Notes under the pieces: model-generated
What the model was told of the DNA's origin: nothing
Database searches by the model: none
What the model saw: only the letters and a program-made list of their open reading frames with translations
NCBI GenBank assembly: GCA_019187405.1
Contig: JABAQZ010000025.1
Span: forward strand, 1-64,000
Direction of reading: 5' to 3'
Source of the DNA: Ignavibacteria bacterium
GTDB taxonomy: Bacteria; Bacteroidota; Ignavibacteria; Tepidaquicellales; Tepidaquicellaceae
Length of the DNA stretch: 64,000 nucleotides
Part shown: piece after piece, positions 2 to 6,128 of the stretch
How the letters are laid out: each line of letters starts with the position of its first letter
Numbering within the stretch: the first letter of the stretch is position 1
Program-made: the position numbers and the translations under genes

Positions 2-2059
2 TTCTGGCTGCAACCTCTGCCGACTGGCGCAACGCTTAACTCGGTTGATTTCTGGGACAGAAATACAGGGTATACCTGCGGCAAAGCCGGAACGGTAACC
101 AAGACAACTAACGGCGGAATGAACTGGGTGTTGCTGGGACAGATAACTTCAAAGGATTTGAATGACATCGAATGCATTGATTTAAATACTTGCATTGTTG
201 TTGGTGACAGCGGATATATAGCAAAGACAACAAATGAAGGATTGAACTGGGTAGTTGTCCCAAGCGGAGTACCGGGTATTTTACTGGATGTTGATTTTCC
301 GACAGCAAATACCGGATATATAAGCGGTGCATCCGGCAAAGTACTAAAATCAACAAACGGTGGAGCTAACTGGATAGCACAAAATGCTGGAGTATCATCA
401 ACATTATTTCATGTATCATTCATAAATCCGTTAAAAGGCGCGATGGCAGGAATAAATAATATTTATACTACAACAAACGGTGGAAATAACTGGACTATAC
501 ATCACTTGGGAACATTCTTTGATTATTTTCCATCAGTACAATATATAAACGATTCTACAATCTATGGATTGTTTGGAACAGTAGCAGAAAGTGAAAAAAT
601 ATTTATTTCTAACAATGGTGGTATAAGTTGGAGTAATTATGTAATTGAAAGTAGTATACCTGATGACATTTCGAGAGCAATGATATTCAAAAACGAATCA
701 ACAGGATTTGTAGTAACACAGATAGGAGATATTCACAAAACTACAAATAGTGGAGTAAACTGGTTCAGAGATACTTCATTTACACCAGAGAATCCGGATT
801 CGGATGTATTTTTAGATATAAATACAACCGAACAGAATTATTTTTATGCAGTTGGTTCAGGGGGAGTAATAGTAAATACGACAAACACGGGTGAACATTG
901 GCAAAGACAGACAGGAGTTCAGGAGACATACAACGACGTATTTTTTATAGGTGAAAATACCGGTTATACAGTTGGAGAAAAAGGAATATTGAAAAAGACG
1001 ACAGATGCCGGGTACAGTTGGAACAGAATAAACCTAAATACAAGTCTTGGAATAAAGAAAATAGTCTTTACCGATTTAAATACGGGATACTTATGCGGAG
1101 ATTCAGGACTTGTGATGAAAACAAATAATGGAGGAATGAATTGGAAAAATCAAAACACACCTGCAGGAGATACGGGATTTACGAGTTTAAACTTTATCGA
1201 TAGCAATCAAGGATTTATTGGAACAAATAATGGATCAATTTATAAAACTACTAATTCAGGAATAAATTGGGTACACAATTTTACTACAAGTTATGGAGGA
1301 GGTGTTTTTCATGATATTGATTTTTATGATGAAACAAATGGAGCAGTTGCCTCAGATATAGCAATTTATTTAACAACAAATTCTGGAGAAAGTTGGAATT
1401 CCACATTATTTCCTTTCAGTGTATTAAATTCAATTGAATATATAGATACTTTAATAATTATATCAGGTGGTTTTAATAGTGAAAGCCCGTTAATAATAAA
1501 ATCAACGAACGGAGGAATAAACTGGTTTAACCAGAGTGTATCACATATAATAACTTCAATTCAGTTTCTGGATAATAACTACGGAATGTTGTGCGGATAT
1601 AATGGAAAAATCTCAAAGACGACAAACGGAGGATTAAACTGGATACTTCTTCCTGGAACAGCCACAGAAAGACTTAATTCTATATATTTTGTCAATTCCA
1701 ATACAGGATATTCTGTCGGCATAGCAGGACAAATAATAAAGACAACCAATGGGGGGTTGTCTTTTATAAACAATAATCAAACAATTAAGACCGATGATTA
1801 TAGATTATATCAGAATTATCCAAATCCTTTTAATCCATCTACACAAATTAAGTATTCATTAAATAAATCGTCAACAGTTATGATAAAAGTACATGACATA
1901 TCAGGAAGAGAAGTGAACACAATACTAAATCAATACAAACAGCCCGGAGTGTACATTGAAACATTTAACGCCATTAATCTTTCAAGCGGAATATATTTCT
2001 ACACTTTATACACAGACGGATTGCAAGTTAGTACAAAGAAGTTTATACTGTTGAAGTAA
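2..2059 (+). CDS. Secreted Ycf48/BNR-repeat protein with T9SS type A sorting domain (5'-truncated)
   Basis: The reading frame is open from base 2, so the gene starts before the window; an internal Met at 119 is not the true start. The visible 685 or so residues are a run of repeats of roughly 40-50 residues, each ending in a motif such as TTNGGMNW or STNGGANW. This is the signature of Ycf48-like/BNR (Asp-box) beta-propeller repeats. The last 80 or so residues begin YQNYPNPFNPSTQIKYSL and end KKFILLK, a typical T9SS C-terminal sorting domain, so the protein is probably exported through the SprA-containing channel encoded at 20582-27178 and either released or anchored at the surface. The propeller suggests a binding or adhesion role, but no enzyme motif is visible. 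The signal peptide is outside the window. The family call is firm; the substrate is unknown. Confidence 0.85.
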   Translation, partial: FWLQPLPTGATLNSVDFWDRNTGYTCGKAGTVTKTTNGGMNWVLLGQITSKDLNDIECIDLNTCIVVGDSGYIAKTTNEGLNWVVVPSGVPGILLDVDFPTANTGYISGASGKVLKSTNGGANWIAQNAGVSSTLFHVSFINPLKGAMAGINNIYTTTNGGNNWTIHHLGTFFDYFPSVQYINDSTIYGLFGTVAESEKIFISNNGGISWSNYVIESSIPDDISRAMIFKNESTGFVVTQIGDIHKTTNSGVNWFRDTSFTPENPDSDVFLDINTTEQNYFYAVGSGGVIVNTTNTGEHWQRQTGVQETYNDVFFIGENTGYTVGEKGILKKTTDAGYSWNRINLNTSLGIKKIVFTDLNTGYLCGDSGLVMKTNNGGMNWKNQNTPAGDTGFTSLNFIDSNQGFIGTNNGSIYKTTNSGINWVHNFTTSYGGGVFHDIDFYDETNGAVASDIAIYLTTNSGESWNSTLFPFSVLNSIEYIDTLIIISGGFNSESPLIIKSTNGGINWFNQSVSHIITSIQFLDNNYGMLCGYNGKISKTTNGGLNWILLPGTATERLNSIYFVNSNTGYSVGIAGQIIKTTNGGLSFINNNQTIKTDDYRLYQNYPNPFNPSTQIKYSLNKSSTVMIKVHDISGREVNTILNQYKQPGVYIETFNAINLSSGIYFYTLYTDGLQVSTKKFILLK

Positions 2060-2069
2060 ATTAAGTCTA

Positions 2070-2238
2070 AATCACGGATTAAACCGATTACACCGATTAT
2101 ACTGATTAAATAAGATTAATACAAAAAATTTCTAAACTGAGATCATATACGTTACTAACCTGAAGTTTCAAAGGAATAGAATAGTATAGTTTAGACAACC
2201 AATCCGTGCAATCACTTAATCCGTGCAAATCCGTGATT
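2070..2238. repeat. Short inverted-repeat (MITE-like) element, copy A
   Basis: The left end AATCACGGATT (2070-2080) and right end AATCCGTGATT (2228-2238) are perfect 11-bp inverted repeats. The outer flanks also partly match as inverted repeats (GTCT outside the left end, AGAC outside the right end). The roughly 150-bp interior has no ORF. Copy A has four extra bases near 2190 compared with copies B and C. No transposase is encoded. This could be a non-autonomous mobile element or a structured intergenic repeat. Confidence 0.55.
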
Positions 2239-2367
2239 CAGACAATTAAACAGAAAAATCAAGTAATCAATAAATACAACATCAACAGTCATGAAAAAAA
2301 CATGACATATAAGGAAGCGTAATCAATATTTTTCTAAATCAGATCAGACAATCCGGTGCGATGTCTG

Positions 2368-2540
2368 AATCACTGATTAAACGGATTACACCGATTACAC
2401 CGATTAAACTGATTAAATAAGATTAATATAAAAAATTTCTAAACTGAGATCATATACGTTACTAACCTGAAGTTTCAAAGGAATAGAATAGTATAGACAA
2501 CCAATCCGTGCAATCACTTAATCCATGCAAATCCGTGATT
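2368..2540. repeat. Short inverted-repeat (MITE-like) element, copy B
   Basis: Left end AATCACTGATT (2368-2378), right end AATCCGTGATT (2530-2540), 173 bp. It is nearly identical to copy C at 3119-3291. It is preceded by a perfect 7-bp inverted repeat, TCAGACA (2344-2350) and TGTCTGA (2362-2368), which looks like the abutting outer flanks of two neighbouring elements. Confidence 0.55.
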
Positions 2541-3118
2541 CAGACAATTAAACAACCAAAGCAAAGTTCAAACAACCAATCCGTGTAATCACTTAATCCG
2601 TGCAAATCCGTGATTCAGACAAATAAACAGAAAAATCAAATTCCAGACAACCAATCCGTGTAATCACTTAATCGGTGCAAATCCGTGATTCAGACAATTA
2701 AACAGCCAAATCAAATTCCGGACTACAATCCGTGTAATCATATAATCCATGCAAATCCGTGATTCAGACAATTAAACAACCAAAGCAAAGTTCAAACAAC
2801 CAATCCGTGTAATCACTTAATCCGTGCAAATCCGTGATTCAGACAAATAAACAGAAAAATCAAATTCCAGACAACCAATCCGTGTAATCACTTAATCCGT
2901 GCAAATCCGTGATTCAGACAATTAAACAGCCAAATCAAATTCCGGACTCCAATCCGTGCAATCACTTAATCCGTGCAAATCCGTGATTCAGACAAATAAA
3001 CAGAAAAAGCAAGTAATCAATAAATACAACATCAACAGTCATGAAAAAATGCATGACATATAAGGAAGCGAAATCAATATTTTTCTAAATCAGCTCAGAC
3101 AATCCGGTGCGATGTCTG

Positions 3119-3291
3119 AATCACTGATTAAACGGATTACACCGATTACACCGATTAAACTGATTAAATAAGATTAATATAAAAAATTTCTAAACTGAGA
3201 TCATATACGTTACTAACCTGAAGTTTCAAAGGAATAGAATAGTATAGACAACCAATCCGTGTAATCACTTAATCCGTGCAAATCCGTGATT
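3119..3291. repeat. Short inverted-repeat (MITE-like) element, copy C
   Basis: Left end AATCACTGATT (3119-3129), right end AATCCGTGATT (3281-3291), 173 bp. With its upstream flank, including the hairpin with stem GTCATG/CATGAC near 3039, it repeats the block around copy B almost base for base. A segment of about 300 bp has therefore been duplicated. Confidence 0.55.
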
Positions 3292-3749
3292 CAGACAATA
3301 AACAGCCAAAGCAAATTCCGGACTCTAATCCGTGTAATCACTTAATCCGTGCAAATCCGTGATTCAGACAAATAAACAGCCAAATCAAATTCCAGACAAC
3401 TAATCCGTGTAATCACTTAATTCATGCAAATCCGTGATTCAGACAATAAACAGCCAAATCAAATTCCGGACTCCAATCCGTGCAATCACTTAATCCGTAC
3501 AAATCCGTGATTCAGACAATTAATCATGATTCCTTGTCTGAAATGTGGTTATTGCGATTAACATGATTTTTATGAATTAAAAAATAGGCTAATGAAATTT
3601 TCATTAAGAATCGGAAAATTAGTAACAAGAAAAAATCAACCGAGCAACCATTTTTTATGCAGTTCATTTCAATTTAGTATTTCATAATTTTAAGTGTTAT
3701 AAAATCAAAAATACTTTTTACTATTCTATATATTTAATTTAAATACATC

Positions 3750-6128
3750 ATGGAAAATATTGATTACACTTTAGTTGCTCCTGTAATACCTGGATTTTCG
3801 CAAAGGAGAGGAAAGTATTATGAAATATCCGAAATTCTGAAAACCGGTCTTCAAGCTGAAGAAAAGACTGTAGCACTTTTTGAAAGAGCTGATATTTTAT
3901 ACAGAACTTTGTGCGCTGTACTTTATAATTTTGTTCCGACCAGCGGACATCCGGGAGGTTCGATTTCGTCGGGGAGATTTGTCTCATCATTAATTTATAA
4001 TTATCTGGATTTTGATATTGCAAAACCTTTTGCTGATGAAAATGATCTTGTGGTTTATGCTGCAGGTCATAAAGCGCTGGGACTTTATGCAATGTGGGCT
4101 TTGAGAAATGAATTTGTGCGAACATTCAAACCGGAACTACTTCCTGATGAAAAGTATCAACTGAGATTTGAAGACCTGCTGGGATTCAGAAAAAATCCTA
4201 CTAATACTCTGCCTCTTTTTAAAAAATTTGTTTCAAAAGCTCTCGACGGTCATCCGACTCCGGCAACACCGCACGTTAAAGTTGCCACCGGAGCAAGTGG
4301 AGTAGGCATACCTTCTTCATTTGGAGTTGCACTCGGCGCTCTTGATTATTTCGGCGAGAATGCTCCGTATATAAACGTTGTCGAAGGCGAAGGAGGCATG
4401 ACCCCGGGAAGAGTGGCCGAAGCATTTGCTGCCGCTTCAGCAATGAGATTATACAATATCATTCTGCACATTGATTACAATCAAGCTTCGATTGATTCAA
4501 ACAGAGTCTGCAGAGATGGCGATCTAAAAGGAGATTATGTACAATGGAATCCAATGGAATTGTGTTATCTTCATGATTTTAATGTAATTCATGTGGATGA
4601 CGGCAAAGACTTCAGGCAGATTATGGCTGCTCAGTCTTTTGCAAAATCATTAAACAATAAAATGCCTACAGCTATAGTTTACAGAACAGTAAAGGGCTGG
4701 AAATACGGTATCGAAGGAAAAGCTTCTCATGGTGCTGGACATAAAATGAATTCGGAAGGTTATTACAACTCATGTAAAGAATTTGAAGATACATTCGGTT
4801 TGAATATTCCGAGATTGAAAGGAGATACTTCGCAGGAAAATATAGAAAGATGTTTTTATGATACGCTGCTTACAATCAGAGAAGCAATTAGCAACGATAA
4901 ATCATTTTCGTTTTTTGCAGATTCGATTTTAAAAGCTAAAAATAGAATTGTCAGTAGAAATAGAATTCCAAAAAAAAATAAACCTGATCTTGATCACATA
5001 TATAAGATAAATATAATTTCATCGGAGAAAATTCCGGATGAACTGAACATAAAGCCCGGAGAAATTACGACGCTGCGATCAGTACTTGGTACATCTCTTG
5101 GCTACATTAACAGAATTTCAAATGGTGCGGTAATCGGAGTTGCAGCTGATCTTCTTGGTTCTACTTCAGTTAATCTGCTTGGAAAAGGTTTTCAAGAAGG
5201 ATTTTATGATGCGGTTGATAATCCTGATTCAAGAATACTTGCTGTAGGAGGAATATGTGAGGATGCAATCGGAGGAATGATGGCCGGATTGTCAGCCTTC
5301 GGAAAGCACATAGGTGTTAGCTCTTCTTATGGAGCTTTTATTTCTGCGATGGAACACACTGCTGCTCGTCTTCACGGAATCGGTGAGCAGAATAAAGTCT
5401 TGCACTACGGCGGACATTTTAATACATGGATACTTATCAATGCGCATGCAGGATTAAAGACGGGTGAAGACGGACCGACTCATGCAGACCCTCAATGTCT
5501 TCAGCTTATTCAGGAAAATTTCCCGCCGGGAATTTTGATTACCATTACTCCATGGGAGCCCGGTGAAATCTGGCCGCTTCTTGTGGAAGGATTGAATAAA
5601 AGACCAGCAGTCTTATCTCCTTTTGTTACAAGACCAAATGAACCTGTGATTGACAGAAAAAAACTAAATCTTGCTCCCGCTACTGATGCAGTAAAAGGCG
5701 TTTATGCATTGAGGAAAGCTGATGAGTCACAGAAATTGGATGGATCAGTGATATTGCAGGAAAGCGGCGTAACTCTGGAATTTATTACAAAAGTATTGCC
5801 GAAATTGGATAAAGCAGGATTTAATATGAATATTTATCATATCTCGAGCGCTGAACTTTATGATGCACATTCAAAAGAAGAAAGAGAAAAACTACTTCCA
5901 TATCAAATTCGAAATACTGCTCTTGGAATTACAGGTTTTACATTGCCTACCATGTATAAATGGATTACGAGTTTTGACGGAAGATATAATATACTTCACC
6001 CATTCAGAAATGGTTATTATCTCGGCAGCGGAACAGCAGAAAGCGTCCTGCTTCAGGCAGGGCTCGATGCTGATTCGATGTATGATGAAGTAGTAAAGTA
6101 TATAGAGCATTCGGTAAAGAAGAAATAA
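3750..6128 (+). CDS. Transketolase-family thiamine-diphosphate enzyme, long form
   Basis: This is a 792-residue ThDP-dependent enzyme of the transketolase family, which transfers two-carbon units between ketose and aldose phosphates. Seen in the sequence: SGHPGGS (about 65-71), AGHKALGLYA (about 105), the GHP...ATGASGVGI segment (about 168-187), the cofactor motif GEGGMTPGR followed by NIILHIDYNQ (about 212-245), and EDGPTHADPQ in the pyrimidine domain. The motif order is N-terminal PP domain, Pyr domain, C-terminal domain, as in single-chain transketolases. It is about 100 residues longer than the usual 650-690, and GDG is GEG. A strong hairpin terminator follows at 6158. Alternatives are a transketolase-like enzyme with another acceptor; the phosphoketolase signature is absent. 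A separate C-terminal-only transketolase subunit lies at 54172. Confidence 0.8.
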   Translation: MENIDYTLVAPVIPGFSQRRGKYYEISEILKTGLQAEEKTVALFERADILYRTLCAVLYNFVPTSGHPGGSISSGRFVSSLIYNYLDFDIAKPFADENDLVVYAAGHKALGLYAMWALRNEFVRTFKPELLPDEKYQLRFEDLLGFRKNPTNTLPLFKKFVSKALDGHPTPATPHVKVATGASGVGIPSSFGVALGALDYFGENAPYINVVEGEGGMTPGRVAEAFAAASAMRLYNIILHIDYNQASIDSNRVCRDGDLKGDYVQWNPMELCYLHDFNVIHVDDGKDFRQIMAAQSFAKSLNNKMPTAIVYRTVKGWKYGIEGKASHGAGHKMNSEGYYNSCKEFEDTFGLNIPRLKGDTSQENIERCFYDTLLTIREAISNDKSFSFFADSILKAKNRIVSRNRIPKKNKPDLDHIYKINIISSEKIPDELNIKPGEITTLRSVLGTSLGYINRISNGAVIGVAADLLGSTSVNLLGKGFQEGFYDAVDNPDSRILAVGGICEDAIGGMMAGLSAFGKHIGVSSSYGAFISAMEHTAARLHGIGEQNKVLHYGGHFNTWILINAHAGLKTGEDGPTHADPQCLQLIQENFPPGILITITPWEPGEIWPLLVEGLNKRPAVLSPFVTRPNEPVIDRKKLNLAPATDAVKGVYALRKADESQKLDGSVILQESGVTLEFITKVLPKLDKAGFNMNIYHISSAELYDAHSKEEREKLLPYQIRNTALGITGFTLPTMYKWITSFDGRYNILHPFRNGYYLGSGTAESVLLQAGLDADSMYDEVVKYIEHSVKKK

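Follow-up and report, generated by a model that had tools for sequence, protein, structure and literature searches.

A locally amplified, gene-less repeat in an Ignavibacteria genome probably belongs to a family tied to GxxExxY nuclease cassettes

Introduction

The closest described systems to the repeats that we analyzed are REPINs and RAYTs. The part of PMC3116915 that concerns them describes hairpin units with inverted repeats, gene-less copies, tandem clusters, and a flanked gene whose type matches the repeat. The repeats described here share these features with that description: they are short inverted-repeat hairpin units (folding indicates the hairpin-capable inverted doublet that is typical of REPINs), they include gene-less and clustered copies, and a single gene is matched to the repeat. 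However, the gene is a GxxExxY gene, from the PD-(D/E)XK nucleases, while REPINs go with a Y1/HUH transposase, and the ends are arrays of 9- to 10-bp words that span about 20-50 bp, instead of single palindromes of 20-40 bp. The MITEs of DDE transposons are also similar, with terminal inverted repeats, a non-coding interior, and dispersed copies, but our units (45 complete ones) lack target-site duplications and no DDE transposase is linked to them. Finally, the intervening sequences of 23S rRNA with S23 ORFs carry a small ORF between complementary ends, and their mobility has long been suspected, according to an excerpt of PMC4990558. These have a different protein and mostly 7-bp words.

The gene of the gene-bearing form passes the curated cutoffs for the GxxExxY family (TIGR04256 / PF13366), but those models do not name a function. 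Our literature search, with subscription journals and preprints mostly outside its coverage, found no described function for GxxExxY, no published description of a tie between these genes and a repeat, and nothing relevant on S23 with inverted repeats. One published passage that uses the GxxExxY name does so only as a label for a CRISPR neighbor, and the available part of a paper on heptanucleotide TAACTGA repeats mentions neither S23 nor an endonuclease.

Results

Layout of the array

We analyzed a 64,000-nucleotide stretch of DNA from an Ignavibacteria bacterium (the window). The array, at 2062-3524, lies between a secreted-protein gene with its stop at 2059 and a gene that starts at 3750 (Table 1). 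An earlier reading of this DNA, made from the letters alone (the sequence-only reading), had claimed three units with opposed ends, and direct reading of the sequence confirms them. The three units are 165-173 bp long and share about 100 bp of interior; unit C is 99% identical to unit B over 173 bp, and unit A is 95% identical to it. The left end is AATCACGGATT in unit A and AATCACTGATT in units B and C, and the right end is AATCCGTGATT. The outer ends common to the units are TGTCTGAATCAC.GATT and AATCCGTGATTCAGACA, with the left end of A (AAGTCTAAATCACGG) as the exception. As in MITEs, units B and C have terminal inverted repeats (45 columns, with scores of 34 and 44; that of B is imperfect), and so do 45 complete units elsewhere. 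An Rfam scan of positions 1800-3900 found no family up to an E value of 1.

Table 1. Features of the array and its surroundings, in window coordinates
Feature	Position	Strand	Remarks
Unit A	2070-2238; 2062-2246 with outer TGTCTGA/TCAGACA	.	outer AAGTCTAAATCACGG / AATCCGTGATTCAGACA, interior non-coding
Unit B	2368-2540; 2361-2548 with outer TGTCTGA/TCAGACA	.	TGTCTGAATCACTGATTAAACGGATTACACCGATT .. CAATCCGTGCAATCACTTAATCCATGCAAATCCGTGATTCAGACA
Unit C	3119-3291; 3112-3299 with outer TGTCTGA/TCAGACA	.	inverted repeat score 44
TCAGACA..TGTCTGA hairpin before unit B	2344..2368	.	arms 2344-2350, 2362-2368
Tandem array of right ends and local spacer, period about 75 bp	2495..3523	+	broken by unit C and a gene fragment
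Decayed upstream-gene fragment (3' coding end), before B	2261..2356	+	alignment score 70
Second decayed upstream-gene fragment (3' end), before C	3011..3092	+	alignment score 73
Large secreted-protein gene, 3' part	2..2059	+	also present, nearly identical, on contigs 27 and 7

The units had also been described as embedded in twelve 75-bp copies of their right ends. There are indeed twelve right ends (AATCCGTGATTCAGACA, starting at 2228, 2530, 2605, 2680, 2754, 2829, 2904, 2978, 3281, 3354, 3429, and 3502), but three of them are the units' own. The steps between them are 73-75 bp, except for two steps of 302-303 bp where units B and C sit, and TRF reports a period of 75 with 13.8 copies and a score of 893. 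In form, then, this is a tandem minisatellite: homogeneous copies, head to tail, at one locus. The hairpin before B, which had been read as two element ends meeting, is present, and so is an equivalent before C; its left arm may instead be altered gene sequence, because decayed copies of the upstream gene precede both units.

Growth of the array

These decayed gene ends score far above chance (70 and 73, versus at best 28 among 500 shuffles). The upstream gene encodes a secreted protein, presumably of the type with a C-terminal sorting domain, and its copies on contigs 27 and 7 are 95.5% and 98.9% identical to it across about 2262 bp that include unit A. The same unit directly follows the stop codon in all of the near-identical gene copies (contigs 18, 27, and 7), and the number of right ends beside them is 12 in the window (contig 18), 5 on contig 27, and 2 on contig 7. 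The 73-75 bp spacing, the carried pieces of the upstream gene, and these copy numbers point to local tandem duplication of the array, not to repeated independent insertion. Of the two origins that had been proposed for the cluster, amplification within one intergenic site is therefore supported and repeated insertion is disfavored. Given the decayed gene ends before B and C, the end of the gene and the unit were probably duplicated jointly, and the 75-bp part would have expanded or shrunk later. The assembly may lack further copies, because those of the gene are located close to the ends of contigs.

The repeat in other places and other genomes

The core end AATCCGTGATTCAGACA, with up to two mismatches, has 63 matches in this genome, as compared to 0 for a reversed control pattern. 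These lie at eight places (two on contig 1 and one each on contigs 7, 14, 18, 20, 21, and 27). The period of the arrays is about 75 bp in the window, 127 bp on contig 20, about 90 on contig 21, and about 165 on contig 14, and in the arrays that were read, the spacers differ from place to place. A search with unit B found matches in 9 of 59 genomes, including its own, with no other genome of the window's genus among those listed. Complete units (TGTCTGAATCACGGATT..AATCCGTGATTCAGACA) recur across many phyla. In genomes with names, an exact pattern for the window end matched at least 117 loci, and the titles of 80 listed loci represent at least nine phyla. Grouped by record title, the loci come from Bacteroidota, Ignavibacteria, Desulfobacterota, Cyanobacteria, Poribacteria, Planctomycetota, Chloroflexota, Fibrobacter, Spirochaetes, and others. 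Thus, the copies are dispersed, as is expected of MITEs. The view that the unit is non-coding, has inverted repeats, and is related to copies elsewhere has held up, both in its own genome and in other phyla, and the proposed search for further copies did not leave the array as a purely local one.

Gene-less units are mostly 68-154 bp long, and lengths of 86-91 bp are commonest. Across 45 complete units, conservation extends about three bases past TCTGA (yTG) and fades beyond. As single-stranded DNA, a unit from Desulfamplus folds with -32.9 kcal/mol (z = -10.7), and window unit B folds with -17.6 kcal/mol (z = -2.6).

We also noticed other repeats near these arrays (G and L numbers are our handles for genomes and loci). 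A perfect palindrome, GAAACCGTTTAAACGGTTTC, forms arrays in L031 (348-626), L032 (8446-8530), and L035 (4224-4411); on contig 27 its copies recur every 65 bp or so. Two copies of the duplicated gene have these palindrome arrays upstream, and the array on contig 20 has them at its side. The contig 27 array is closed by a GACAATCCTGAGCGAAGTC hairpin (L031, 3554-3572), which resembles CCTGAGCGAAGTCGAAGG repeats; the latter occur in many environmental genomes. On contig 22, GTTCAATGTTGAATGTTCGAT words in tandem and a GGATTCCCGCTTTCGCGAGGAATGAC hairpin adjoin AATCTGTG-type repeats (L036, 4530-4730). In G012, which belongs to another genus, a duplicated gene likewise ends at such an array: by eye, the repeat flanks two similar coding regions that resemble sensor kinases (contig 94; L073, 1-1200 and 4400-5600).

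A GxxExxY gene beside the repeat

In a relative from the same family but another genus (G011), arrays of the window's repeat enclose a GxxExxY gene, whose protein matches TIGR04256 with 128.4 bits (the cutoff is 35). More broadly, the end TCTGAATCAC.GATT.. flanks GxxExxY genes (PF13366, with an intact PD-(D/E)XK site) in relatives and in distant phyla. We scanned all 117 listed pattern loci for GxxExxY (an earlier pass took 80): 10 have the gene within 130 bp, one more has it at 1.2 kb, and the other 106 have no GxxExxY gene. When ORFs within 250 bp of these 117 loci were clustered, GxxExxY was the largest family, with 10 loci, and the next had 4. At three loci, namely L184 (Algoriphagus chordae), L180, and L248, the GxxExxY gene is bracketed by whole units. 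This partner gene family goes beyond anything in the sequence-only reading.

Seven GxxExxY proteins beside this end average 82% identity per column and represent at least three phyla by title; they include proteins from Bacteroidota isolates and from MAGs of other phyla. In comparison, pairs of GxxExxY proteins within a genome average 42% identity if their word classes differ and 48% if they share one, which suggests that the gene and the repeat probably crossed phyla as a pair. Misbinned contigs in MAGs could be behind some of the cross-phylum cases.

The window's own genome has one GxxExxY gene. Its CGCAGATT words are confined to one side, and its inverted-repeat score is 23 (the threshold is 30). 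No GxxExxY HMM match was found up to an E value of 10 in the window or in nine other stretches of this genome, and because there is no match between the arrays, we call the window units a gene-less derivative. As the words of the genome's own gene are different, any nuclease that moves the units would have been lost since or would act from elsewhere.

Inverted word arrays around GxxExxY genes

For 30 GxxExxY loci of relatives, we read nearly all of the flanking sequence. Most have opposed arrays of 9- to 10-bp words tight against the gene. Read toward the gene, the words include CACAGAG, CACAAAG, CGCAAAG, CGCTAAG, CACGAAG, CACTAAG, CACGGATT, and others, so the words differ between cassettes; a strict pattern of three GATTs had no match in these first 30 loci. 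The grammar CRCNRAK was framed after we saw the first flanks and was then tested on 40 unseen loci. The window units, read inward, have CACGGAT, CACTGAT, and CACCGAT, which fit it.

To quantify the inversion, we aligned each upstream flank to the reverse complement of the downstream flank, with a score of 0, in the set of 72 loci, for flanks of under 30 bases. A score of 30 or more was reached at 48 of 72 loci but in just 43 of 710 mispaired comparisons, and in the hold-out, at 31 of 40 loci versus 26 of 781. The 72 loci comprise the first 30, 40 fetched in list order, and the copies from this genome and G011, all among the matches listed; the hold-out loci likewise followed the order of the list, and G045:C52, whose gene is 38 bp from a contig end, was left out. 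Just 1 of 77 control ORFs reached 30, and this was the GxxExxY gene of G011 itself, caught blind. Two of five Y1_Tnp loci from the window's genome also reached 30. Words are mostly oriented inward: 336 inward versus 90 outward across the 72 loci, and 134 versus 26 in the hold-out, where inward words were the majority at 27 of 40 loci and outward words at 7. The corresponding counts were 30 versus 18 for control ORFs (n = 76) and 8 versus 19 for S23 loci (n = 30).

The S23/IVP loci of relatives (PF05635, L109-L138) have arrays of their own: genes for S23 four-helix-bundle proteins are flanked by inverted arrays of words that are mostly 7 bp, such as GTATTGA, AAGAATC, GTTAAAA, and CTGAGTC. The flank score was at least 30 at 23 of 30 loci versus 23 of 294 mispaired. 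By sequence, the S23 loci appear to be cassettes of a parallel class.

The GxxExxY protein

GxxExxY genes were found in 49 of the 59 genomes searched. Across 112 proteins, the catalytic D, E, and K are conserved at 1.00, 0.99, and 1.00. The predicted structure (pLDDT 88.5) is most similar to SSO0001 (Z = 10.3), and the next matches, including Hjc and type II restriction enzymes, are tied near Z = 7. The model has a nuclease fold like that of restriction enzymes, and these matches speak to the fold only. By sequence, there was no match in PDB up to an E value of 1, and PADLOC and PHROGs gave only weak matches to Cas4b, PDC-M36A, and proteins of unknown function.

Word class and protein phylogeny

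We built a tree of 119 GxxExxY proteins, of which 77 could be assigned to one of three word classes; the other 42, including those from this genome and G011, have too few words. It is built from few columns and leaves many forks open. Word class changes just 11 times on it, while shuffled labels need 33.1 changes (a count as low came up in 0 of 200 shuffles), and the GATT class alone requires 3 changes versus 22.9 (0 of 500). The nearest relative in another genome, at under 60% identity, shares the word class for 60 of 77 proteins, versus a fraction of 0.38 expected from class frequencies. Two or more word classes occur in 14 of 42 genomes. Shared ancestry of neighboring loci could be behind part of this signal.

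One site illustrates how the arms evolve. In three genomes of one genus (G019, G026, and G007), a GxxExxY gene lies between nuoE and nuoF, and a copy in G028 (L099) has the same neighbors by eye. Both arms have CACAAAG in G019 and both have CACAGAG in G007, G026, and G028, so, as far as these sequences go, both arms at this site change together. The other 27 nuoF loci among those listed have no GxxExxY match, and nuoE ends within about 90 bp of nuoF in 20 of 21 loci from the same family (for L347, the sequence read stops short of the nuoE side). The site is best read as an operon that was interrupted when that genus gained the cassette.

Signs of movement

Target-site duplications, which the sequence-only reading had suggested looking for, are absent: none of 45 complete units has flanks that share 6 or more bases, and 18 of 45 share 3 or more, versus about 14.9 expected from shuffles. 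Nor did the sequences that we compared give a direct sign of mobilization by the GxxExxY nuclease.

Many of the units in Desulfamplus are carried within an outer, multicopy MITE (GGCATC..GATGCC, with ends GGCATCNTTCAT; L322-L325 and L299-L306), which also carries a second hairpin interior in the same style of words. Of 13 distinct copies of this outer MITE, 11 have target duplications of at least 8 bp (they are 8-9 bp long). Because these duplications belong to the outer MITE, it was the carrier and not the unit that moved in Desulfamplus. We sought copies of the outer MITE without the unit, but the copies read are split around the unit or around the second word-type interior; one 105-bp copy has a different short interior and is not a clean empty site.

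Discussion

Overall, sequence comparisons support well a tie between the window's array, as a locally amplified and gene-less family member, and GxxExxY cassettes. We propose that the units are non-autonomous and belong to a repeat family in which the form with a gene is the GxxExxY cassette, with the nuclease acting in trans (probability of roughly 0.6). That the GxxExxY nuclease mobilizes the units is the likeliest reading of these sequences. The protein would bind its own word array, with one word per helical turn, which suggests an array of bound subunits. It might then cut at or near the array, perhaps at a cruciform formed by the unit, as the hairpin suggests. Repair after the cut would copy the unit elsewhere; the absence of target duplications suggests such a cut-and-repair route rather than transfer by a DDE enzyme. 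Gene-less units would use the nuclease in trans, and words once seated may promote unequal exchange or slippage, which would yield the 75-bp array along with dragged pieces of the neighboring gene.

We considered whether the repeats might be older and independent of the nuclease, having spread by template switching, recombination, or DDE-type MITEs, with the GxxExxY genes as passengers that insert preferentially in or beside them. This is unlikely, but it has the most in its favor among the alternatives: most units have no gene nearby, units lack target duplications, and the Desulfamplus units ride in an outer MITE that has them. However, word type tracks the protein clade, different GxxExxY genes are flanked by word types that differ but share one inward grammar, and the two arms between nuoE and nuoF have changed jointly (CACAAAG in G019, CACAGAG in three others). 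It is very unlikely that the array is just a local minisatellite, formed by slippage or unequal exchange behind one gene. Homogeneous 73-75 bp spacing, gene fragments in the array, and 12, 5, and 2 copies beside three genes do fit such a process, and it stands as an account of the array's form; as the whole explanation, it is refuted by dispersed copies, since the core end occurs at 8 places in the genome with different spacers and in many phyla.

Repeats that serve the host, as terminators, mRNA stabilizers, protein-binding sites, or elements of chromosome structure, would account for the intergenic positions and the hairpin potential, but hardly for cassettes with a nuclease gene, an insertion between nuoE and nuoF, or closely similar pairs of repeat and protein across phyla, and we consider this explanation highly improbable. 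We give still less credence to REP/REPIN-type elements moved by a RAYT (a Y1 transposase). Hairpin-capable inverted doublets and tandem clusters do resemble REPINs as portrayed in the relevant part of PMC3116915, and the folding z scores (-10.7 for the Desulfamplus unit and -2.6 for window unit B) agree with this. However, the family of genes adjacent to the units is GxxExxY, and none of the seven Y1_Tnp matches in the window's genome has the repeat within 1.5 kb, so we rejected a RAYT origin.

Beyond this array, mobilization of the units by a GxxExxY nuclease would fit a broader proposal, which we make tentatively and with somewhat more doubt than belief: that these are a class of one-gene PD-(D/E)XK cassettes with no described relative, in which the 9- to 10-bp word of the inverted end arrays evolves jointly on the two arms and along with the protein, and in which gene-less units are abundant, with S23 as a parallel class that has 7-bp words. 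The link between repeat and gene gives the GxxExxY protein a testable function and the repeats a source. Because word and protein vary together, the cassettes may amount to a naturally occurring series of codes for protein-DNA recognition. If the proposal is true, the RAYT-REPIN pair would gain an analogue that is based on a nuclease. Environmental genomes commonly contain unexplained repeats that resemble words, and GxxExxY and S23 cassettes would then explain many of those that lie between the genes of environmental bacteria.
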